In this document: piece by piece, positions 1,987-22,295 of the stretch
How positions within the stretch are numbered: the stretch's first letter is position 1
How the letters are laid out: every line of letters starts with the position of its first letter
Source of the DNA: a virus
Virus record (IMG/VR): IMGVR_UViG_3300022871_000129
Coordinates: 1 to 22,295 of that record
Length of the DNA stretch: 22,295 bases
Reading direction: 5' to 3' (one strand)
Translations under genes and position numbers: made by a program
Notes under the pieces: generated by a model
The model's input: only the letters and a program-made list of their open reading frames with translations
Told to the model about the DNA's origin: nothing
Databases searched by the model: none

Positions 1987-3192
1987 ATGGGCGTTCAAGG
2001 TATTACAAGTAAAACAGCGATTATTGAAGAAGTAGCATACGGTGTTTTTCCGGGAACTCCGGGAATGAAACGTGTTGAGGTTTCTGATGATAGTATCGGA
2101 CCTGATTACGGATATTCTGACCCTGAGACTATTACGGGAAATCTCGTAAAGACTGCAAATATCAGAACAAGAAAGACTGTCGGAGGTTCAATTAATGTAA
2201 TTGGTGGACCTGAAAATGGATTCGGAAATTTTCTGAAATTTTCAGCTGGAAAAGTTACAACTCTTAATGGCTATCATTGGAGAGAACATTTTACACTTAT
2301 AGCAGCTCAGACAGAAATTACTGTAGCTAATCCAACTGTAGTGAGTGCAAGCGAAAGAGTGTGGTATTACACTAAATTAACCAACATATGGAGACTTCTT
2401 GTTGACACAACAGATTATACTCTTGTTGACGGAACAGGTGTGGTTACTCTGGTTGTAGCAGCTGCAACTGATGATGAGCTTATCGTAAGTTATGCGGAAG
2501 ATGTTGCTGGCGTTTATTCTCACATTATTCAGAGTTCAACTGACATACCTTCATTCCAGTATTGGAATACAGAGGGTGGAATAGAACTTTTTGAATATAC
2601 AGGAGCAAAAGTAAATACAGCTACATTCACAGTGAACTCTGAAGATTTCCTTCAGGCTTCCGTTGACCTTATCTGTCAGGATGAAAAATATGGAACAATT
2701 ACAGGTCATACATTTCCACCTGCATTAGTATTATCAAATCTTGAGCCTTTCCTTTTCAAACAGGCACAGGTTATTATTAATCATGTTGCTAATGTTGATT
2801 ATGAAAGTATCGAAGTAGGAATTGATAATGCTCTCGACCCTGTTTATACAATTCGTTGTGACGACACTGTAAAAGATTTAACACCGACTATTCAGACTGT
2901 ATCACTCTCAGGAGAAATTGAGTTCAATGACATGGTTGAATATAATCAAGTTGACCAAGGAACATTTTTCTTTTTGCAGATTGATTATGGAAAATGTCAG
3001 GGTGTTGAAATTGGAACTACAGGCAAAAATTATGCACTTGAATTTTTTGCACCAAGAGTAAGAAATGAAGTTCCAGATTTACCAACAAACAGAGATAGAA
3101 TGATTTTTTCAGTTGAAGGTTTTGCAAATTATGATTCTCAGTTTGATATGGCTTACGAATGGGTTCTCATTAATTCTGAATCAAGTATTTAA
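1987..3192 (+). CDS. Major tail tube protein
   Basis: A 401-residue protein with a strong ribosome binding site (AAAGGAAGG) before the ATG. The first 75 residues, with VAYGVFPGTPGMKRVEVSDDS and a following GxxKTANIRTRKTVGGSINV region, look like the phage tail tube proteins that begin with an 'aygtfpg' segment and a beta-rich core. The middle part (about residues 105-175) contains a strand-rich insertion that may be an extra surface domain and makes the protein longer than many tube proteins. It lies directly upstream of the frameshifted chaperone gene, the normal position for the tube gene. It is followed by a stable hairpin at 3211-3234 that could raise the level of this mRNA segment relative to downstream genes. 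Confidence 0.75.
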   Translation: MGVQGITSKTAIIEEVAYGVFPGTPGMKRVEVSDDSIGPDYGYSDPETITGNLVKTANIRTRKTVGGSINVIGGPENGFGNFLKFSAGKVTTLNGYHWREHFTLIAAQTEITVANPTVVSASERVWYYTKLTNIWRLLVDTTDYTLVDGTGVVTLVVAAATDDELIVSYAEDVAGVYSHIIQSSTDIPSFQYWNTEGGIELFEYTGAKVNTATFTVNSEDFLQASVDLICQDEKYGTITGHTFPPALVLSNLEPFLFKQAQVIINHVANVDYESIEVGIDNALDPVYTIRCDDTVKDLTPTIQTVSLSGEIEFNDMVEYNQVDQGTFFFLQIDYGKCQGVEIGTTGKNYALEFFAPRVRNEVPDLPTNRDRMIFSVEGFANYDSQFDMAYEWVLINSESSI

Positions 3193-3958: not shown

Positions 3959-6900
3959 ATGGCAGTTGACAATTTTGAAATGATTATTAAAGCTGTAGAT
4001 GAAGCAACAAAAATCATTAATACGGTTGAAGGTTCTGTCAAAAGTTTAAAACTTACGACAGAATCAGGAGCTAAATTTGATGTTAATTTTGATACAAAAG
4101 GCACTGAAAAAGAAATCGGAGGTCTTGAAAAACTTATGGGTTCTTTTGGAGAATCCTTTAAAGCAGCTGGATTGTCAGCCGGTTCTGCTCTCACTACTAT
4201 AACATCTGGTCTTGGTTCAATGTTAAGTCCGCTTAATATTGTTATGTTGGCTTTCTCTCCTCTCATTGGAATTGCAAAAATATTTCTTACACTTCTTAAT
4301 CCTATCAATCTAGTAAAAGCTGCATTAAGTGCTGCTTCTGCCGTTGTTTCAACTTTTGTAAGTGTAGCTTCGGCAGGATTTAATCTTATTAAGAGTGTAA
4401 TTGCTTCAGCTTTCAATGCAGCGATAGCGGTATTTAACACGTTTAAAAATGCGATAAGTTCAGTCATTGGTTTTGTAAAAACATTATTTTCCACCTTCTC
4501 ACAACTCACGCTGACAATCAGTGCAGCGATACAAATTATTAAAGATATTTCCAACGCTTTCATAGCAATGGGAAAAGCAGTTTATGATGCTTTCTCAAGT
4601 ATAATAAATACAACAGCGGATTTTGAGCAACAAATGAGTGCTGTGGCAGCTGTTACAGGTGCTACTACTGAAGATATGATAAAATTAAGATCAGCTGCTC
4701 ACGATATGGGTAGAACTACCTCGAAAACAGCTACAGAGAGTGCCCAAGCATTATATCTTTTAGGTCAAGCAGGTCTAAACGCTGAAGAATCAATGGGAGC
4801 TTTAGCAGGAACTGTTAAACTTGCTGAAGCAACAGGTTCAGAATTGAATCTTGCCACAATAGCCACGGTCGGAACTCTTAAACAATTTGGACTCGAAGTT
4901 GAAGAATCTTCCAGAGTTGCAAATGTTTATGCAGCAGCAGTTTCAAATTCTATGATTACTCTTGAAGATATGACACAATCTATGAAATATGCAGGTCCAG
5001 TTGCAGGAGCTTTAAACGTATCTCTCGAAGATACTACTGGAATATTAGAAGTTCTTGCAAACCGAAATATCAAAGGTTCTCAGGCAGGAACAGCATTAAG
5101 AAAAAGTTTTACAGCTCTTATAACACCTTCAGACAGAACAAATGGAATTCTTTCAGCTTTGAGTTTAACAATGAAAGATGTAAATCCAGAAACAAAATCA
5201 TTTGCGAAAATTCTTGATACACTTAACAAAGCAGGTATAACAACTACACAAACAATGGCACTTTTCGGATTAAGAGCTGGTCCTTCGATGATTACTCTTC
5301 TGAAAGCTGGCGGAGATGAAGTAAGAGAATACACAGAAAAAGTAACTGGCACTCAGGAAGCTTTCCGACAAGCAAAATTAAGACTTGATAATCTCAGAGG
5401 TTCTATAACATTATTCAAATCAGCAGTTGAAGGTGTAACTATAAGTTTAGGAACTCCTTTCCAGAAATCTTTTACAGATATAATAAGACTTGCGACTGAT
5501 ACTGTGAGAGCTTTTGACGCTTTTATAACCACAACTGGACTTGTAGAAGACGCAACAAAAGTCTTGACATCATCAACAAATTTACTCGTAACTTCTTTCA
5601 GAATTTTCGGTCAAATAATAGCAACTGGAAAACCTGCACTTGATTTATTTGCAGAGGGGATTGTAACTATCGGTGAAGCTTTTGCAGAGTCAATTATATG
5701 GGTTACAGAGTTCTTTAATGAAAATCAAAGAATACAATCAATTATAACGGTTACTCAAGGATATATTAAAACCTTTACAGATACCGCATCCACACAGTTT
5801 GATAGCATCACAGAAAGTATATATTCAATTACAGAGGAATTTTATGGACTCTCTGAGGGTTTTAGCAAAGCGGTGGGGAATATAGTTCAATGGATAAGCT
5901 TGGTTATTATTAGATTTTCTGATTGGGTAACAAGTGGCGAAGCTGTAAAAAACATGGTAGATGCAATAGCTAAAGTGGGAAAAGGATTCCAAAACTTTCT
6001 CAAAGCTTCTGGAGAGCTTATTAAAATAGTTACCGGTTACATGGGTAAGTTTACAATATCCAGCGAAACTTTTTCAAAAATTGTTAAGACTGCGGGAAGC
6101 ATTGGGGGAAAAGCATTTGACCTAATAGCTAAAGCTATCAGAACTGCAATATCTGTTCACAATACAATTGTAAAATTAATTCCGAATATAGTTGGTGCAT
6201 ACAAGTCTTTGAAAACTGGAATCAATTCTGTAATAGGAGTTATTAGAGAACTTATCGCACGATATATAGAATTTATAACTATCACAGAAAAAGGAATGAC
6301 GATAGATTTTGCAGGAGCTCTCAAGAAAGCTTTCAACGCTGCTCTTGACGTGATAAAAACTCAGGGACAAAATTTATTAAGTGCTATTGAAAAATTGTTC
6401 GATAGTCTTGATCCTGCTAAAGTGGTAAAGAGTTTACAAAAGTTTTTCAATTCCGCTTTTACAACTTTATCTTCAACCATATCTCAGGGTGGGGGCACAC
6501 TTAAACCAGCGATATTATCCATTTTTAATTTTCTTGATGGTTTAGCCAATGAACTCAGTCCAAAACTCGATAAATTTGCAACAGATTTTTATTATCAAAT
6601 GGAAACTTATCTCGCAATTAATTCGGGAACTATTGGAAAATCCATAGGGGAATCTATGGTGAAGGTATTAGAATTTATCAGTTCTGGACTCGACCTTCTT
6701 ATTGACGGGATGATAGCACTTATTGAGGGTAAAAAAGGCGGTGCTGGTTCTCCCTCTCAAATACTTGGAGATTTTTTCGGTGGTATTGGTGAAAAAATTA
6801 AACCGGTATTAACCACAATGTTTCAGAAAGTTTTGACTGCCTTTACAACAGGGTGGGCTCTTTTAGTTAGTGGAATAGATAAGCTCATTGGTGGTAGTGG

Positions 6901-9733
6901 AATATCTTCAAATCTTATAACGACTCTCAAAACTGCATTTGAAACAGGAGACTATGAACCTTTACAAACAGCAATTGGTCAGGTAATTCTTAAAGCAATT
7001 GATACAGGTCTTAGTATAGGTCTTAATCTTGCTTTCGCAGGTGTCGGTATGTTACTTGAAACGGTCTGGAATAATTTAGGAACGACAGCAATAATACTCG
7101 CCAAAATAGCAACTCTCATAACAATAGTGTCGGCAGGACTCGGAGTTTTAAAAGTCTTTGCTATTTTCGGTATGGCTGTGATGAACTTCGTAGCGACAGG
7201 TATTGCACTTATGGCGAAAACTAAACTTGCTACGATGCTCGGAGTTCAAGCTGGGGGAAGTATTCTAGCTGCTCTGAAAACTTTTTTAATGACCTCTGTT
7301 ATTGCACCAGTTACAGCTTACTTGAGTCCTATATTATTTGCTCCGTGGGCGACAGCTATCTCAAGTGGAGTTATAGCTTCTTTTGCCACGGCTTTTGTTG
7401 TTGGCGGTGCCGTCGGAGTTGCAATAGGACTTGTAATCAATTCTATGTTAAGCGACGCTTGGAAGGACTCTATTGGGAAATTTGTTGACAGTATGGTTAA
7501 TTGGATTCCCTTCATTGGTAAAGCAGTATCTGACGCAAGTCAAACAGTTATTGATGATAATAGGTCGGAAATGGCGTTGAAGTGGGCTAAGCTCTACGGT
7601 CCTGAAGTTGGTCAGGCTATTCTTAACGGGGAAAAAATATCTGACGTTATAGTCAAATTTGGACTCAAGACGAAAAAAAATATAGACGGGTCTATTGAAC
7701 ATTTTAAAGAAATTCCAAAGAAAGTAACTAAAGCTGCAGAGGATACTGCAAAAGCTGTTAAAAAAATTGGGGACGCATACATTGACCCAACTGCCGCATC
7801 TAAAGCACGAGAGGGTGCAACTGAAGTAGTTGACGCATACAGACAAACAAAAAAAGAGAAACTTGATTTAGCTTATAATGAAGTTTCAAATAAAGTTCAA
7901 GAATTTGGTAAATTGTATGGTGACCCAAAACTAATTGAAGATGTTAGAAACGGTGCTACCAAGACCATAAACGCTTATAATACCACATTAATACAGAAGA
8001 TAGCCGATAAAAAAGCAACTCTGGAAACAGCTATCAGAGAAAATGTTGTGGACGCTTTCACAAAAGCGGAAGTGATAAAAGAGAGAGCTTCTCAAATAGG
8101 AAGCAAAGCTATTGAAAACATGGCTAAGGGTATTCAGGATAATATTTTAGTTCTTGAAACCGCTATGACTCAGGCAACTAAGCAAGGTCTCGAAAATCCT
8201 TTGACAGAGTCTCAGGTAAAATCTCTCGCAACTATGAAAACCACTCTGGACAATCTTGAAAAACAACTCATTGACCAAGCTGGACCAATGAAACAGGCTG
8301 CAAATACAGTTTATCAAACTATTCCTGATACAATTAAGGAACAAACTACTGAATCTGTTACCAATGCTGAGGACTTGGCGAATAAAACAGCTGATGGTTT
8401 CATCAATAAAATGGATGAAAAAACTGCCGAAATAGAAGAAAAATCAAAAAAAATAGGTAAAACATTGATGGAAGGTATCGGTAAAGGAATTGACGAGGGC
8501 AAGGTTCAGACAGAGGAAAAATTTGGTAATACTGTCGATACTATGCAGAAAAAAACTGAAGAAATTAATAAAATTATTAAAACATCAAGTGACGGTATCG
8601 CTCCTGCCGTTGGAGCAGCTCTTGACCAGACTGCAAAAGTCGTAGGAGAAAAAACTGACGTTCTGAAACAGGTTACAGTCGATGGTATAAAAGTGACCAC
8701 AGACTTAGCACTCGGAGAACTCAGTAACCAACATTCACTATTAAAAGCGGAACAAGATAGATACTGGTCTGAAAGAATAGCAGACGAAGCGAAAAATGGA
8801 GTTACATGGGGTCAGGTCATGGGTGCTACTATGGCGAAGGAATCTCTTTCTTTAATGGATTCTCATAAAAAACAATTAACAGACATCTTCTCTCAACCTG
8901 CACTTTCGTCTCAGTTAGCCGAAATTAATGCAAACACATATTCAAGCGTATTCGGGACTACAATTAGGGGAAGTAGTAAGTCAATTTCTGATTCTTTTAA
9001 AGAAGTTGTAATGTCGTCATCGAGTGCTGTAGAAATGTCAATAAATCAGAGTGCTTATGAGCAAGGTTCAAAATGGGCCTCAACTGTTGGAAAAGGAATG
9101 ACAGATAATCTTGCATCAAATAAAGCTATGGTAAAAACTGCTTTCGATAATTTCTTGACTGAACTTAATCCTGATTCAACTCAGATGCAAACTTACGGTG
9201 AAAAAACCGCTAAGTCTTTCATAAACGGAATGGCAGCTTCATTAGGAAGCGGTAAATCTCAGTTAATCAATGCTCTTCAAAATAGTATCGGGTCATTGAT
9301 GGAAGCTCATTCTCCACCAAAAGAAGGTCCTCTTTCTCAGATAGGCGTTTGGGGTGCTGGTGTAGGTTCTACCTTTATGGGTGAACTTGCAAAGTCTTTG
9401 ACGGATACTAGCATGATGCAAAGTGCTTTAGGGAATTTTTCAGATATTTACGCTAAAACAAGCGGAGCTTTATCATTATCAAATGGAAATTCCATCGGTG
9501 CCGGAGGACTTTCAAGGAATGGGTTGACCACTCCTGCCCTTGAAGTTCCCGGTGTCTCCGGTGGTTCTTCTAGTCAAAATGTAACGGTGGGATTTAGTGG
9601 ACCAATAACAATTAACGACCCTATGGATGCTCAGCAATTAGGAGATATTATGGGAAATACTATAAGAGAAAAACTTAATCAGCAACGTCAAAGAGGGGTA
9701 ACTTCTAGTCGTTCTTTAGGATTTACGAGGTAA
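3959..9733 (+). CDS. Tail tape measure protein (TP901 family)
   Basis: At 1924 residues this is by far the largest gene. Residues about 225-430 match the TP901-type core: alpha-helical, with TTEDMIKLRSAAHDMG, SAQALYLLGQAGLNAEE, a run LEDTTGILEVLANRNIKG and SQAGTALRKSF. Hydrophobic stretches near residues 87-200, 1054-1085 and 1137-1164 could insert in the host membrane. A long helical, lysine/glutamate-rich region spans about 1190-1560. AHSPPKEGPLSQIG near 1783 is the SP(S/P)-type motif common in the C-terminal third of tape measures. It sets tail length and helps DNA entry. By the usual ~1.5 angstrom per residue rule the tail would be long, around 280-290 nm (an estimate). No peptidase or lysozyme motif was recognised. 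The start is supported by GTGAGGGA upstream. Confidence 0.92.
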   Translation: MAVDNFEMIIKAVDEATKIINTVEGSVKSLKLTTESGAKFDVNFDTKGTEKEIGGLEKLMGSFGESFKAAGLSAGSALTTITSGLGSMLSPLNIVMLAFSPLIGIAKIFLTLLNPINLVKAALSAASAVVSTFVSVASAGFNLIKSVIASAFNAAIAVFNTFKNAISSVIGFVKTLFSTFSQLTLTISAAIQIIKDISNAFIAMGKAVYDAFSSIINTTADFEQQMSAVAAVTGATTEDMIKLRSAAHDMGRTTSKTATESAQALYLLGQAGLNAEESMGALAGTVKLAEATGSELNLATIATVGTLKQFGLEVEESSRVANVYAAAVSNSMITLEDMTQSMKYAGPVAGALNVSLEDTTGILEVLANRNIKGSQAGTALRKSFTALITPSDRTNGILSALSLTMKDVNPETKSFAKILDTLNKAGITTTQTMALFGLRAGPSMITLLKAGGDEVREYTEKVTGTQEAFRQAKLRLDNLRGSITLFKSAVEGVTISLGTPFQKSFTDIIRLATDTVRAFDAFITTTGLVEDATKVLTSSTNLLVTSFRIFGQIIATGKPALDLFAEGIVTIGEAFAESIIWVTEFFNENQRIQSIITVTQGYIKTFTDTASTQFDSITESIYSITEEFYGLSEGFSKAVGNIVQWISLVIIRFSDWVTSGEAVKNMVDAIAKVGKGFQNFLKASGELIKIVTGYMGKFTISSETFSKIVKTAGSIGGKAFDLIAKAIRTAISVHNTIVKLIPNIVGAYKSLKTGINSVIGVIRELIARYIEFITITEKGMTIDFAGALKKAFNAALDVIKTQGQNLLSAIEKLFDSLDPAKVVKSLQKFFNSAFTTLSSTISQGGGTLKPAILSIFNFLDGLANELSPKLDKFATDFYYQMETYLAINSGTIGKSIGESMVKVLEFISSGLDLLIDGMIALIEGKKGGAGSPSQILGDFFGGIGEKIKPVLTTMFQKVLTAFTTGWALLVSGIDKLIGGSGISSNLITTLKTAFETGDYEPLQTAIGQVILKAIDTGLSIGLNLAFAGVGMLLETVWNNLGTTAIILAKIATLITIVSAGLGVLKVFAIFGMAVMNFVATGIALMAKTKLATMLGVQAGGSILAALKTFLMTSVIAPVTAYLSPILFAPWATAISSGVIASFATAFVVGGAVGVAIGLVINSMLSDAWKDSIGKFVDSMVNWIPFIGKAVSDASQTVIDDNRSEMALKWAKLYGPEVGQAILNGEKISDVIVKFGLKTKKNIDGSIEHFKEIPKKVTKAAEDTAKAVKKIGDAYIDPTAASKAREGATEVVDAYRQTKKEKLDLAYNEVSNKVQEFGKLYGDPKLIEDVRNGATKTINAYNTTLIQKIADKKATLETAIRENVVDAFTKAEVIKERASQIGSKAIENMAKGIQDNILVLETAMTQATKQGLENPLTESQVKSLATMKTTLDNLEKQLIDQAGPMKQAANTVYQTIPDTIKEQTTESVTNAEDLANKTADGFINKMDEKTAEIEEKSKKIGKTLMEGIGKGIDEGKVQTEEKFGNTVDTMQKKTEEINKIIKTSSDGIAPAVGAALDQTAKVVGEKTDVLKQVTVDGIKVTTDLALGELSNQHSLLKAEQDRYWSERIADEAKNGVTWGQVMGATMAKESLSLMDSHKKQLTDIFSQPALSSQLAEINANTYSSVFGTTIRGSSKSISDSFKEVVMSSSSAVEMSINQSAYEQGSKWASTVGKGMTDNLASNKAMVKTAFDNFLTELNPDSTQMQTYGEKTAKSFINGMAASLGSGKSQLINALQNSIGSLMEAHSPPKEGPLSQIGVWGAGVGSTFMGELAKSLTDTSMMQSALGNFSDIYAKTSGALSLSNGNSIGAGGLSRNGLTTPALEVPGVSGGSSSQNVTVGFSGPITINDPMDAQQLGDIMGNTIREKLNQQRQRGVTSSRSLGFTR

Positions 9734-17438: not shown

Positions 17439-17680
17439 TGAGCTCAAAAAAGTCGCCCATAAAAATGACCCCTCCCCCCCCTTGAGCTTACTCGTGAGCT
17501 TGTAGCATAATGCAACACAAATATATCGTGAGCTTATTGCCTTGAGCTTATTGGCATTGACTTACTTAATAGCAGCTGTGAGCTTAAGAGATATGAGTGG
17601 AGAGCTTAGCTGTGAGCTGAGCGTGTCGACGGCCTGAGCTTAACAGCTGAGCTTAAGAGGAAAATAATTGACTGAGCTTA
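17439..17680 (+). repeat. TGAGCTTA octamer cluster
   Basis: Exact TGAGCTTA at 17483, 17529, 17543, 17579, 17635, 17648 and 17673, all in the same orientation. Degenerate copies include TGAGCTCA (17439), TGAGCTTG (17495), AGAGCTTA (17601), TGAGCTGA (17613) and a TGACTTA at 17558. Spacing is irregular (13-56 bp). The same octamer recurs in the two other control regions (21097, 21116, 22112, 22132) and at 15178. Isolated exact copies also fall in coding DNA (2475; reverse strand 6890 and 13648), giving a feel for background. Confidence 0.75.
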
Positions 17681-18660: not shown

Positions 18661-19044
18661 CTACAATGAGAAATATAACTTAGTTTTTTGTTCAAGAGTT
18701 TTCTGCAACATATCGAAGTATAAGCCTGATATAGTTTCTTTCTTCGTCATCTTGAGACCCTTGCCTTTGTATGTGGTCACGTCGTATAAGTCCATAGAGT
18801 TAAGTCGAATTTCTATATGTGATATCGCCTCCGGATTAGTTCCAGGACGAAAAGCTAAACCGTTCTTGATTGCCATTATAATCTTAGTCCCTGTCATGTA
18901 TCTCCAGCCTTTTGGTAGTTGGTTGATAATTGTAGTAGCTATTGATTTGTTTCTTTGTTCTTCTTGGATTTTATTAATTTCTTTCGATAAGAAATCTTTG
19001 ATATTATTTGTTACGTTGTTTAATTTTGTTTCTTGTTCAGTCAT
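18661..19044 (-). CDS. Hypothetical protein (127 residues)
   Basis: Start at ATG 19044 with AAGGAAGG upstream. A polar helical N-terminus (NNVTNNIKDFLSKEINKI) leads to a central part with LPKGWRYMTGTKIIMAIKNG and LYDVTTYKGKGLKM. The look is that of a conserved phage accessory protein, but I cannot name the family. Sits mid-operon. Confidence 0.6.
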   Translation of the reverse strand: MTEQETKLNNVTNNIKDFLSKEINKIQEEQRNKSIATTIINQLPKGWRYMTGTKIIMAIKNGLAFRPGTNPEAISHIEIRLNSMDLYDVTTYKGKGLKMTKKETISGLYFDMLQKTLEQKTKLYFSL

Positions 19045-19738: not shown

Positions 19739-19948
19739 TTAATATAATATATATGTAGTTTCACTTTCAGCGATTCCAGCGTTATTGAGATGGTCCATTA
19801 TAATTTCCTTGTCTTCTATTTCCGGGTATTTTTCTTCTAATTTTTCAAGATTTCTGTGGAAAGTTTCACGGTAACAATTCATAATAGTTTCATCGTTATT
19901 AAGATACTCTTCTATTCCATCGGTTAATTTTTCAAGTGCTTTTTCCAT
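19739..19948 (-). CDS. Hypothetical acidic helical protein (69 residues)
   Basis: ATG at 19948 with AGAAGGAA upstream. Acidic and helical (MEKALEKLTDGIEEYLNNDE, then RNLEKLEEKYPEIEDKEIIM). No family recognised. First gene after the terminator at 20002-20025, so it either has its own promoter (candidate at 19970-19998) or depends on read-through. Confidence 0.6.
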   Translation of the reverse strand: MEKALEKLTDGIEEYLNNDETIMNCYRETFHRNLEKLEEKYPEIEDKEIIMDHLNNAGIAESETTYILY

Positions 19949-19969
19949 TTTAATTCCTTCTTTCTTATA

Positions 19970-19998
19970 ATTATGTTTTACTCATACTCATTTTGTAA
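19970..19998 (-). promoter_or_regulatory. Weak promoter candidate
   Basis: Minus strand TTACAA (19998-19993), 17-nt spacer, CATAAT (19975-19970), between the terminator of the upstream operon and the gene at 19948. The -35 is poor; support is mainly the need for a promoter here. Confidence 0.35.
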
Positions 19999-20001
19999 GC
20001 T

Positions 20002-20025
20002 AAAAAAGAAGTCCCGAAAGACTTC
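20002..20025 (-). terminator. Rho-independent terminator after the pentapeptide-like gene
   Basis: Minus strand GAAGTC, loop TTTCGG, GACTTC (20025-20008) followed by TTTTTT. A second, 11-bp hairpin (AGAACTCATCC 20032-20042 with GGATGAGTTCT 20049-20059) lies just upstream and spans the stop codon, making a double-hairpin 3' end. Confidence 0.9.
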
Positions 20026-20042
20026 CTCTTTAGAACTCATCC

Positions 20043-20489
20043 CTATAAGGATGAGTTCTCCATACTACATCGTATTAATCGCACCTGTTCACCTCCTTCC
20101 TGATACAACTGAGTGTTTTTAATACTCGAACTTGTCAGTTCGAACTTTTTGAAGCTCGTTCTTGTGAACGAGGTCTCACTGATTTCGCTTGTATCTAGCC
20201 TGAGTGCCAGGCTACAGTCGTGGAAGTCCACCCGTGTAAATCCTACATATCTACCCATTACTTCTATACTACAATTTTCGAAGTTCGAGTCTGTCACATC
20301 GACTTCGTGGAAGTTGCACCCTGTGAAGGTGCAATTGACGAACGTGCAATCCTTGAAATAAAGGTTTTCTATATGGAATTTTTCGAAAACCTCATTCCTA
20401 AAGGTTTTCTGAGAAATCTCTTTCAATATACCCCCACTTAAGTCTAGGGCTTCTTGGAAGTTCATTTTTTTTCTTATTATTGTTCTCAT
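20043..20489 (-). CDS. Pentapeptide-repeat-like protein encoded by hairpin-rich DNA
   Basis: 148 residues from ATG 20489 (site GGGGGA). From about residue 40 the sequence shows five-residue spacing with central F/L and preceding A/C/T/N: NLYFKDCTFVNCTFTGCNF, then DSNFENCSIE, RVDFHDCSLA, TSFTRTSFKKFE. This fits a right-handed beta-helix of the pentapeptide repeat type, known for DNA mimicry toward gyrase, among other roles. The repeat is imperfect and short. The coding DNA holds many inverted repeats: 7-bp stems at 20126-20143, 20155-20172, 20196-20214 and 20314-20334, an 8-bp one at 20362-20392 with a competing partner at 20402-20409, and 11 bp at the stop codon. Confidence 0.65.
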   Translation of the reverse strand: MRTIIRKKMNFQEALDLSGGILKEISQKTFRNEVFEKFHIENLYFKDCTFVNCTFTGCNFHEVDVTDSNFENCSIEVMGRYVGFTRVDFHDCSLALRLDTSEISETSFTRTSFKKFELTSSSIKNTQLYQEGGEQVRLIRCSMENSSL

Positions 20490-20499
20490 TTTTTCCCCC

Positions 20500-20580
20500 T
20501 TAGTTTTTCTTACCGAAAGTTTTAGTTGTTGTTTCTATGATTTTTGCATCCCAATTTTTTATAACTTTGTAAGTTTTCAT
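20500..20580 (-). CDS. Very small hypothetical protein (26 residues)
   Basis: ATG 20580 with AAAAGGGGC upstream reads MKTYKVIKNWDAKIIETTTK and ends at TAA 20502-20500, a few bases before the ribosome binding site of the pentapeptide-like gene. Its good ribosome binding site and tight fit support translation, either as a small protein or as a leader peptide for the next gene. Confidence 0.5.
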   Translation of the reverse strand: MKTYKVIKNWDAKIIETTTKTFGKKN

Positions 20581-20600
20581 TTGCTTGCCCCTTTTTTTGT

Positions 20601-20620
20601 GGCCGGTATCTCAACCGGCC
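20601..20620. promoter_or_regulatory. Perfect 7-bp GC-rich hairpin between genes
   Basis: GGCCGGT (20601-20607), loop ATCTCA, ACCGGCC (20614-20620). The T-rich tract follows on the plus strand (TTTTTATTTTATTT), so as a terminator it would stop transcription running opposite to the local genes. On the minus-strand mRNA it is an intercistronic hairpin just upstream of the ribosome binding site of the 26-residue ORF. Confidence 0.6.
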
Positions 20621-20632
20621 TTTTTATTTTAT

Positions 20633-20833
20633 TTATTTCTGGATTGTTCTTGTTACAATCCAGCCGTTTTTTATTTCTGTTTCTAATATTTCGATATCTT
20701 TGTCAGTATGTATATACATTTTATCTTGAGTTCCATTTTTTTCTATTGTAGCGATGATGCATTCGGAAGCCATTTTTAAATCCCATTTTATGTTATTTAT
20801 TGTTATTTCTGTGTTTGTGTTTGTGTTTGTCAT
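20633..20833 (-). CDS. Hypothetical protein (66 residues) with Thr-Asn repeat start
   Basis: First gene after the promoter at 20880-20908; GGGAGAAAA precedes the ATG. The protein begins MTNTNTNTEITINN, encoded by a hexanucleotide ACAAAC repeat, then a compact domain (WDLKMASECIIATIEKNGTQ, KDIEILETEIKNGWIVTRTI) likely of alternating strands and helices. The 3' end carries a perfect 9-bp hairpin (CTGGATTGT 20639-20647 with ACAATCCAG 20655-20663). A 12-bp palindrome ATGTATATACAT lies at 20708-20719. No family recognised. Confidence 0.6.
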   Translation of the reverse strand: MTNTNTNTEITINNIKWDLKMASECIIATIEKNGTQDKMYIHTDKDIEILETEIKNGWIVTRTIQK

Positions 20834-20855
20834 TTTTATTTTCTCCCTTTGTTTG

Positions 20856-21154
20856 TTTTGCCTTTGTTTCTATACCTTAATTCTATCAAATGTATAGACT
20901 CTTGTCAAGTATATATACTATCTATTATACACGTATCATACAATATATAGCTGTATCCCTTTGTTTCTAGGGGTTACGTCGATGTCAATAAATTTTAATA
21001 AGTTTCTGGAAAAAATCAATATTTTCTTGTATCTAAGTGGTGTATTATAGCTCGATACCTTGCTATCATTGAGTTATAAGGTGTTATTATATAATTTGAG
21101 CTTAACGATATTGTTTGAGCTTATTGGCTTTCCTGAATTGACATGAAAAAAGAC
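20856..21154 (-). repeat. Control cassette copy A (299-bp direct repeat)
   Basis: Near-identical to 21871-22169. The first ~150 bp (promoter, ATACACGTATCATAC and ACGTCGATGT motifs) differ at about four bases; ~47 bp in the middle have diverged without net length change; then over 60 bp are identical, including TATCATTGAGTTATA and TGAGCTTA. This fills the non-coding stretch 20834-21183 together with the terminator at its right end. Confidence 0.9.
20880..20908 (-). promoter_or_regulatory. Sigma-70 promoter of the 20833 operon
   Basis: Minus strand TTGACA (20908-20903), 17-nt spacer, TAGAAT (20885-20880), 47 nt upstream of the first ATG. A TATAAT (about 20924-20919) upstream could be a second, weaker start. 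Identical promoter in copy B. Confidence 0.85.
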
Positions 21155-21169
21155 TGGAAATTAATCCAG
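21146..21169 (-). terminator. Rho-independent terminator after the 21184 gene
   Basis: Minus strand CTGGA, short AT loop, TCCAG (21169-21154), then TC and TTTTTT. Lies 15 bp after the gene end, inside the edge of control cassette A. Confidence 0.75.
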
Positions 21170-21183
21170 CCTTGATAATCTTA

Positions 21184-21711
21184 TTATGTTGTTATTCTAT
21201 CTTGTTGCACCTTTTCGGCCGCAACAATGGAAGCATCCGCATCTTCTCTTGCTTCCATTGTTTTTCTTGCTTCATGTTCGCAAGAAATTCTTTCATTTCT
21301 TGCGATTTCTTCTACTTTTGTAGAAGAAATCCATTTTGTGTAGATGATGCGTCCTTTTTCATCTACACAAATAACTTTCTTAGAGGCCTTTTGAATTTCC
21401 TCCTGGATTTCTTCCCGTTGGGAAGACAGTGTTTCGCTGTCTTCCCAGGAAACGTCGTCCCATTGGGCATCTGTCATGCCCATTTTTTCCTGAATTGCAT
21501 AATTCAGGAATTCGGCTCTTCCATAAATCTCTTCGTATCCTTCACAAGGAACCCATGAGTTCCCCCATTCACCCCCTGTTTCGGTCACGATGACCGTCAA
21601 AACGCCTTTTTCGGCGTTATTTTTTTTTATTTTTGCAATTGTTGCAACTCTTTGAGCTGCAACTCTCTGCAATCTTTCGTTCCTAGTTTCTTTTCCTTCT
21701 ATTTTTTTCAT
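21184..21711 (-). CDS. Unknown protein encoded by a chain of DNA inverted repeats
   Basis: 175 residues from ATG 21711 (AAGGAG upstream). Basic N-terminus (MKKIEGKETRNERLQRVAAQ), central VLTVIVTETGGEWGNSWVPC, an acidic helical middle (EDSETLSSQREEIQEEIQKA) and a charged end rich in E-A-R-E. No domain recognised. The DNA is exceptional: perfect stems of 13 bp (21223-21235/21250-21262), 11 bp (21278-21288/21295-21305), 11 bp (21305-21315/21320-21330), 13 bp (21335-21347/21359-21371), 11 bp (21419-21429/21437-21447), 7 bp (21464-21470/21476-21482) and 10 bp (21487-21496/21501-21510), with shorter ones up to 21663. Adjacent stems abut, so nearly every base of 21223-21371 can pair locally. The protein reading may be only one of its roles. 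Confidence 0.6.
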   Translation of the reverse strand: MKKIEGKETRNERLQRVAAQRVATIAKIKKNNAEKGVLTVIVTETGGEWGNSWVPCEGYEEIYGRAEFLNYAIQEKMGMTDAQWDDVSWEDSETLSSQREEIQEEIQKASKKVICVDEKGRIIYTKWISSTKVEEIARNERISCEHEARKTMEAREDADASIVAAEKVQQDRITT

Positions 21712-21745
21712 TTTTTTTCTCCTTAGTTTTTTTATTCTTTTTTTA

Positions 21746-21850
21746 TTATTCTTTTTCTATTCCTTCAATGCATTGCGTGCAATTCCATGCACAGAAATTA
21801 CCATGACAATAAGGGCACATTCTCCCAGTTGTTTTAGTTTCTTTTTTCAT
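21746..21850 (-). CDS. Tiny cysteine-rich (zinc-binding-like) protein, 34 residues
   Basis: ATG 21850 with AAGGAG upstream, using an initiation region nearly the same as that of the gene at 21711. It has four to five closely spaced Cys and a His: CPYCHGNFCAWNCTQC, residues 12-27, suggesting a zinc knuckle. Ends at TAA 21748-21746. First gene after promoter B. Confidence 0.65.
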   Translation of the reverse strand: MKKETKTTGRMCPYCHGNFCAWNCTQCIEGIEKE

Positions 21851-21870
21851 TTTTTTTCTCCTTAGTTTCT

Positions 21871-22169
21871 TTTTGCCTTTGTTTCTATACCTTAATTCTA
21901 TCAAATGTATAGACTCTTGTCAAGTGCATATACTATCTATTATACACGTATCATACAATATATAGCTGTATCCCTTTGTTTATAGGGGTTACGTCGATGT
22001 CAATAAATTTTAAAAAGTTTTATAGTTTCACTGATATTTTGCCCTTGTTTGGTGGTTATAATTTGCTCGATACCTTGCTATCATTGAGTTATAAGGTGTT
22101 ATTATATAATTTGAGCTTAACGATATTGCCTTGAGCTTAATGGTTTCCTGAATTGACGTGAAAAAAGAC
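21871..22169 (-). repeat. Control cassette copy B (299-bp direct repeat)
   Basis: Second copy of the cassette at 20856-21154, offset about 1015 bp throughout. Carries promoter B, the same ACGTCGATGT and TATCATTGAGTTATA (22079-22093) motifs, and TGAGCTTA at 22112 and 22132. It accounts for the non-coding stretch 21851-22231 with the terminator at 22161-22188. Confidence 0.9.
21895..21923 (-). promoter_or_regulatory. Sigma-70 promoter of the 21850 operon
   Basis: Minus strand TTGACA (21923-21918), 17-nt spacer, TAGAAT (21900-21895), identical to promoter A, 45 nt upstream of the ATG at 21850. Confidence 0.85.
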
Positions 22170-22188
22170 GGGTTGAAGTCCCCGTCTT
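22161..22188 (-). terminator. Rho-independent terminator of the operon entering from the right
   Basis: Minus strand AAGACGGG, 8-nt loop, CCCGTCTT (22188-22165), then a T run to 22161. Ends the transcript of the partial gene at 22232. Confidence 0.9.
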
Positions 22189-22231
22189 GCTGGTATTATT
22201 ATGTTATTTTTATTTGCTTATTTCATCTTTC

Positions 22232-22295
22232 TTAATATTTGTTATCTTCTAGTATTTCTCTGATAGTTTCAATTTCATTTTCTGCTTCTACCGCC
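22232..22295 (-). CDS. C-terminal end of a gene cut by the window edge
   Basis: An open minus frame enters from the right edge and ends at TAA 22234-22232, about 45 bp before the terminator. The 20 visible residues (AVEAENEIETIREILEDNKY) are acidic and helical. Too short to identify. Confidence 0.5.
   Translation of the reverse strand, partial: AVEAENEIETIREILEDNKY

Follow-up and report, generated by a model that had tools for sequence, protein, structure and literature searches.

The nearest published case of protein genes filled with palindromes is that of the Nematomorpha mitochondrial genomes, in which coding palindromes with a mean length of 43 bp, and arms of up to 142 bp, lie within conserved genes (PMC6649704). 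Both arms of these repeats are coding, the genes are expressed, and template switching has been discussed as their origin (PMC6649704). The nearest functional analogue is provided by the genomes of ssRNA phages, where the coding RNA folds more strongly than its synonymous shuffles, with z scores of -5 to -13 for genes of MS2, Qbeta, GA and AP205. Other palindromes are of a different kind: REP, Rickettsia palindromic and Correia elements are interspersed, sometimes within genes, as copies of one family, and a transcription attenuator consists of a short leader with a single switch, made of alternative hairpins that share an arm. Template-switch or quasi-palindrome mutation needs a single event to leave perfect inverted copies that are short and have short loops, and accounts of it concern isolated events or hot spots rather than the tiling of a whole gene (PMC8794818, PMC3820800).

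The window considered here, the whole of a 22,295-base IMG/VR record, is a tailed dsDNA phage contig, with tail genes on the + strand, among them those for the tape measure (3959-9733) and the tail tube (1987-3192); the - strand bears numerous small genes. One - strand gene, at 21184-21711, is tiled with hairpins. Like the genes of Nematomorpha, it contains many perfect inverted repeats which overlap with competing hairpins (PMC6649704), but the phage arms measure only 6-13 bp, they are tiled along the genes, and the main genes carrying them are without relatives. As in ssRNA phages, its coding RNA outfolds synonymous shuffles; unlike in those phages, the carrier is dsDNA, only a few genes are affected (other window genes have z near 0) and the stems are far more perfect. 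Each hairpin of the window has its own sequence, unlike REP, Rickettsia palindromic and Correia elements, and while alternative hairpins share an arm as in attenuators, here they are many and occupy a full gene. The open-licence literature searched yielded no account of hairpins tiling a gene of a dsDNA phage, an absence that is weak evidence.

The hairpin gene

The ribosome binding site, open frame and terminator read from the sequence in the original prediction were all borne out (Table 1), and the protein is probably made. The frame is the top-scoring of the three on the sense strand, and the promoter and position of the gene suggest that it is an early one. The protein gave no match of weight in Pfam, PHROG or NCBIfam, and no homologues were recovered by tblastn against phages and plasmids or by scanning viral and genome contigs for patterns; its AlphaFold2 model has a mean pLDDT of 50.5, too low to use. 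The small ORF between promoter and hairpin gene likewise has no family match. An Rfam scan of the locus returned chance-level matches only, none of them at gathering score. Three other viral contigs come from nearly the same phage, but they cover the window's first 11 kb only and end before the hairpin gene.

Table 1. Features of the hairpin-rich part of the window
Feature	Position	Strand	Description
Promoter repeat, copy 2	21850..22190	-	sigma-70-like TTGACA-17-TAGAAT at 21923-21895 (11/12)
Small ORF between promoter and hairpin gene	21746..21850	-	34 aa, four Cys, zinc-ribbon-like
Hairpin-chain ORF	21184..21711	-	175 codons, open frame, RBS TAAGGAG before ATG; orphan
Hairpin GTTGCAGCTC-AAA-GAGTTGCAAC	21641..21663	-	10 pairs, one G·U in mRNA
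Hairpin	21601..21618	-	6-bp perfect arms, loop 6
Hairpin	21582..21596	-	6-bp perfect arms, loop 3
Hairpin	21487..21510	-	10-bp perfect arms, loop 4
Hairpin	21464..21482	-	7-bp perfect arms, loop 5
Hairpin	21419..21447	-	11-bp perfect arms, loop 7; one arm also pairable with 21410-21416
Hairpin	21335..21371	-	13-bp perfect arms, loop 11
Hairpin	21304..21331	-	12-bp perfect arms, loop 4
Hairpin	21278..21305	-	11-bp perfect arms, loop 6; abuts 21304-21331; one arm also pairable with 21263-21270
Hairpin	21223..21262	-	13-bp perfect arms, loop 14; arm part also pairable within 21202-21227
Intrinsic terminator, downstream of hairpin-gene stop codon	21150..21173	-	
Promoter repeat, copy 1	20835..21170	-	88% identical to copy 2; same promoter at 20908-20880
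66-codon ORF, second operon	20633..20833	-	9-bp hairpin at 20639-20663; then 7-bp hairpin 20601-20620
Pentapeptide-repeat gene (20043-20489) with dense 7-11-bp hairpins	20032..20489	-	
Hairpins of pentapeptide-repeat gene	20032-20059, 20126-20143, 20155-20172, 20196-20214, 20314-20334, 20362-20392, 20385-20409	-	

The inverted repeats had been placed correctly to within 1 bp. The count of at least ten perfect ones holds, in that 11 are found when arms no shorter than 7 bp and a loop of 3-16 nt are required, although several of these overlap; similarly, the proposed chain of abutting hairpins exists as about ten compatible hairpins, but it is not strictly linear, some repeats sharing an arm (the competing ones lie at 21202-21227, 21263-21287, 21282-21311 and 21410-21426). 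The claim that almost every base of a 150-nt stretch is paired was overstated: perfect stems make up about two-thirds of 21223-21371, the remainder being loops and the segment 21263-21277. Some arms are present three times in alternating orientation. The arms have no common sequence, and no repeat family joins the hairpins. The codon phase of the stems is uneven, yet it matches that of the gene's shuffles.

Pairing in excess of chance

The local pairing in this gene far exceeds what its protein, codon usage or dinucleotides require. The 11 repeats compare with a mean of 1.63, and a maximum of 6, in 2000 synonymous shuffles, and for arms of at least 10 bp there are 6 against 0.17 expected (maximum 2). 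The mRNA folds at -179.9 kcal/mol, against about -117 to -119 kcal/mol for synonymous shuffles (-117.2 +/- 7.0; z -9.0), and is thus 61-72 kcal/mol more stable than its codon-shuffled versions; dinucleotide shuffles give z -13.5 for the coding strand and -14.2 for the complement. The idea that the structure itself is selected, which shuffles preserving protein and composition could have overturned, therefore comes through this comparison. Inverted repeats are in excess and direct repeats are not, which points to a process or a filter specific to inverted copies. A survey across the tree of life counts as perfect inverted repeats those with arms of 10 or more and a spacer of at most 8 (PMC13155455); by this rule, four repeats of the gene span about 206 bp per kb, where the viral average in that survey is 1.93 bp per kb (PMC13155455).

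Across the window, per-gene z runs from -2.4 to +1.6 once the hairpin gene (-9.0) and its two neighbours are set aside, and 220 random ORFs from other phage contigs have a mean codon-shuffle z of -0.81 (sd 1.42, minimum -6.65). A survey of 3,551 phage ORFs for further cases, as had been proposed, found two others as extreme: the lowest composition-corrected folding energies belong to two ORFs of a single contig, L051/L056 (z -9.3 and -9.0), followed by the window gene (z -5.9) and then by an ORF at z -4.1. A chimera of assembly or amplification is an unlikely origin, as it would yield long inverted blocks instead of an intact frame tiled with 6-13-bp hairpins.

The neighbouring operon and the promoter repeats

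Nearby genes had been judged unremarkable by eye, and this stands for 18661-19044 (z 0.0), but the two nearest genes are themselves enriched, with z -3.3 for the pentapeptide-repeat gene at 20043-20489 and z -2.6 for the 66-codon ORF at 20633-20833. The stop codon of the pentapeptide-repeat gene lies inside one of its seven hairpins, and a search of viral contigs and phages brought up no relatives of this gene. The same gene contains the 12-nt direct repeat AGAAAACCTTTA, its two copies being read in different frames, with a partial inverted copy between.

Each of the hairpin-rich units is preceded by a copy of a 340-bp promoter repeat, so that the feature is common to two transcription units, each standing behind a copy of a duplicated strong promoter. 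In the dinucleotide-shuffle profile there are two enriched zones, at about 19,900-20,700 and 21,100-21,700; the promoter repeat between them is near background, and the enrichment stops at the promoter repeats. The 5' leader of the hairpin-gene transcript is without a protective hairpin, which speaks against the reading, set out below, of an mRNA shielded by its fold. The promoter-repeat motif is absent from the other viral contigs searched.

Two further features of these repeats were observed. The palindrome TCTATAC-16-GTATAGA overlaps the promoter in both copies (20869-20898 and 21884-21913) and is a possible operator. The octamer TAAGCTCA occurs 16 times in the window against 1 expected: seven copies lie within 200 bp (17483-17680) of an 860-bp stretch that has no obvious gene, and each promoter repeat has two (21097-21123 and 22112-22139). 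Such an array is perhaps one for a regulator, or a set of replication iterons.

A second contig with hairpin genes

The strongest cases of the survey lie at 9785-11888 of L056, within IMGVR_UViG_3300033149_002390 (41.4 kb; L051/L056), a contig chosen solely for its shared type of DNA methyltransferase. Consecutive ORFs of 147, 358 and, past a small ORF, 135 codons have codon-shuffle z scores of -11.6, -16.1 and -6.1, and nearly all ORFs of L051 outside this group are near zero. Directly upstream of the 147-codon ORF is TTGACT-18-TATAAT, the region's best promoter-like site. The proteins of these ORFs are orphans too, with no relatives found, and they show no significant similarity to the hairpin-gene proteins of the window (best BLASTP E 0.05 in a five-protein set), so the hairpin style recurs independently of detectable protein homology. 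Hairpin-chain genes may thus be a real, little-noticed style of phage gene.

Candidate hairpin ORFs in L006, L055, L062, L063, L194 and L138 were rejected, having either a weak codon-shuffle score or spurious frames over terminators or intergenic palindromes.

RNA or DNA: irregularities in the stems

If pairing is kept at the level of the mRNA, stems should accept G·U pairs but not A·C or other mismatches. When imperfect stems are scored by a strand-symmetric definition, the irregularities of the four hairpin genes in the mRNA sense add up to 13 G·U, 2 A·C and 1 other (one-sided binomial for G·U versus A·C, p = 0.004), of which L051 alone contributes 12, 2 and 1. Background quasi-helices (2,978 ORFs reaching 300 nt, plus shorter ones) have 1147 G·U, 967 A·C and 4467 other. 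By the same measure ssRNA phage genes, which do have selected structure, show no G·U excess, at 17, 17 and 30, and this calls for caution. In L051 ORF B the coding strand is also more stabilised (z -16.7) than its complement (z -11.5). These observations favour pairing in L051 that is kept at the mRNA level, although strong transcription, by way of strand-biased C-to-T changes on the non-template strand, could be an alternative source of the G·U excess. In the window gene both strands are equally stabilised (z -9.1 each) and the stems have one G·U in about 80 pairs, being otherwise Watson-Crick; strand-specific selection may be supposed there by analogy with L051 only. The original prediction had offered selected structure and repeated template switching side by side, and each now has indirect support, the former from the G·U pairs of L051 and the latter from the Watson-Crick stems of the window.

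Proposed origin and maintenance of the hairpins

The explanation we lean towards, with a confidence that stops a little short of even, is that the hairpins come from template switching and persist through a preference for tightly folded mRNA. Short-range switching during replication would create each hairpin in one step, acting on a strongly transcribed and weakly constrained orphan gene, and the hairpins would then be retained because a tightly folded mRNA is favoured. The most plausible advantage would be that little of the mRNA is exposed to single-strand-specific endonucleases, be they of the host, the phage or a defence system, while ribosomes could still open the fold. Template switching can create and repair perfect RNA stems (PMC8794818), and in yeast quasi-palindrome mutation is tied to strong transcription (PMC3820800). 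The folding strength per base of the window gene matches that of MS2 and Qbeta genes. More tentatively, we suggest that there may be a class of strongly transcribed orphan genes in some dsDNA phages whose mRNAs are selected to fold end to end, resisting RNA-cleaving defences or phage-induced decay while being translated.

The rival that survives best is purely mutational, and we regard it as a serious one, though less likely: transcription-promoted template switches (quasi-palindrome mutations) would pile up in weakly constrained orphan genes, and the fold would be functionless and would decay. The window stems, almost entirely Watson-Crick and with no partly decayed long stems among them, speak for this, as do a perfect-repeat score of 85 units per kb against 1-19 in ssRNA phages, the triplicate arms of alternating orientation, which iterated switching could yield, the strong promoters before both affected operons, the lack of detectable relatives of the hairpin-gene protein, and the association of such mutation with transcription known from yeast (PMC3820800). 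A steady process should nevertheless leave stems of all ages with all types of mismatch, whereas the irregularities of L051 are almost only G·U; copying slips should also have given an excess of direct repeats, which is not seen; and the pattern is missing from other ORFs in contigs chosen for strong promoters.

That the hairpins act in the DNA, as single-stranded hairpins or cruciforms in replication, recombination or packaging, or as protein-binding sites, appears improbable. Nearly pure Watson-Crick stems and the equal stabilisation of the window's two strands would suit such a role, but the arms, having no common sequence, are not sites of one protein, the hairpins are limited to transcribed units and missing from the promoter repeats, and L051, read as mRNA, has irregularities of the G·U type. 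The idea that the product is a non-coding or bifunctional RNA, for instance one that sequesters RNase III or a double-strand-binding protein as a sponge or decoy, has similarly poor prospects: the very stable fold would suit it, as would the strong promoter and the terminator that delimit the transcript, but no Rfam family matches at a sensible score, a 175-codon frame with a ribosome binding site has stayed open and outscores the two other sense frames, and the hairpin-rich neighbour encodes a recognisable pentapeptide-repeat protein. The sponge RNA and the packaging or recombination substrate that had been guessed at for this gene found no support. Least credible of all is an array of terminators halting antisense transcription: hairpins do often precede T runs on the + strand, which has nine of the ten terminator-like sites in 19900-22295 (1.3 expected on both strands), but an A-rich coding strand makes T runs after hairpins likely on the opposite strand, T runs in the sense direction would be purged as self-terminating, and L051 has no antisense bias.

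Implications and other structured loci

If the fold is selected, DNA phages would armour certain messages by folding them, against RNA-cleaving immunity or mRNA decay, and such armour would be invisible to annotation by protein homology, while a simple shuffle test would find the genes. If it is purely mutational, these genes would document template switching in coding DNA at a very high natural density, along with a route that writes new protein sequence from the complement of the old. Either way, two unrelated phages provide a testable and searchable signature.

Strong folding of coding RNA was also seen without perfect hairpins, in L102 2366-2968 and L106 3927-4529 (codon-shuffle z -7.6 and -6.0). 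By eye, we take both to resemble T4 gene 59, the helicase loader, and T4 gene 59 itself (L252 3444-4097) has a codon-shuffle z of -3.9; ORFs of this kind possibly have a conserved mRNA structure. In a 130-kb viral contig (L138 and L194), many strong promoters have nearby intergenic palindromes built on TGCACAAA/TTTGTGCA; these are possibly operators.
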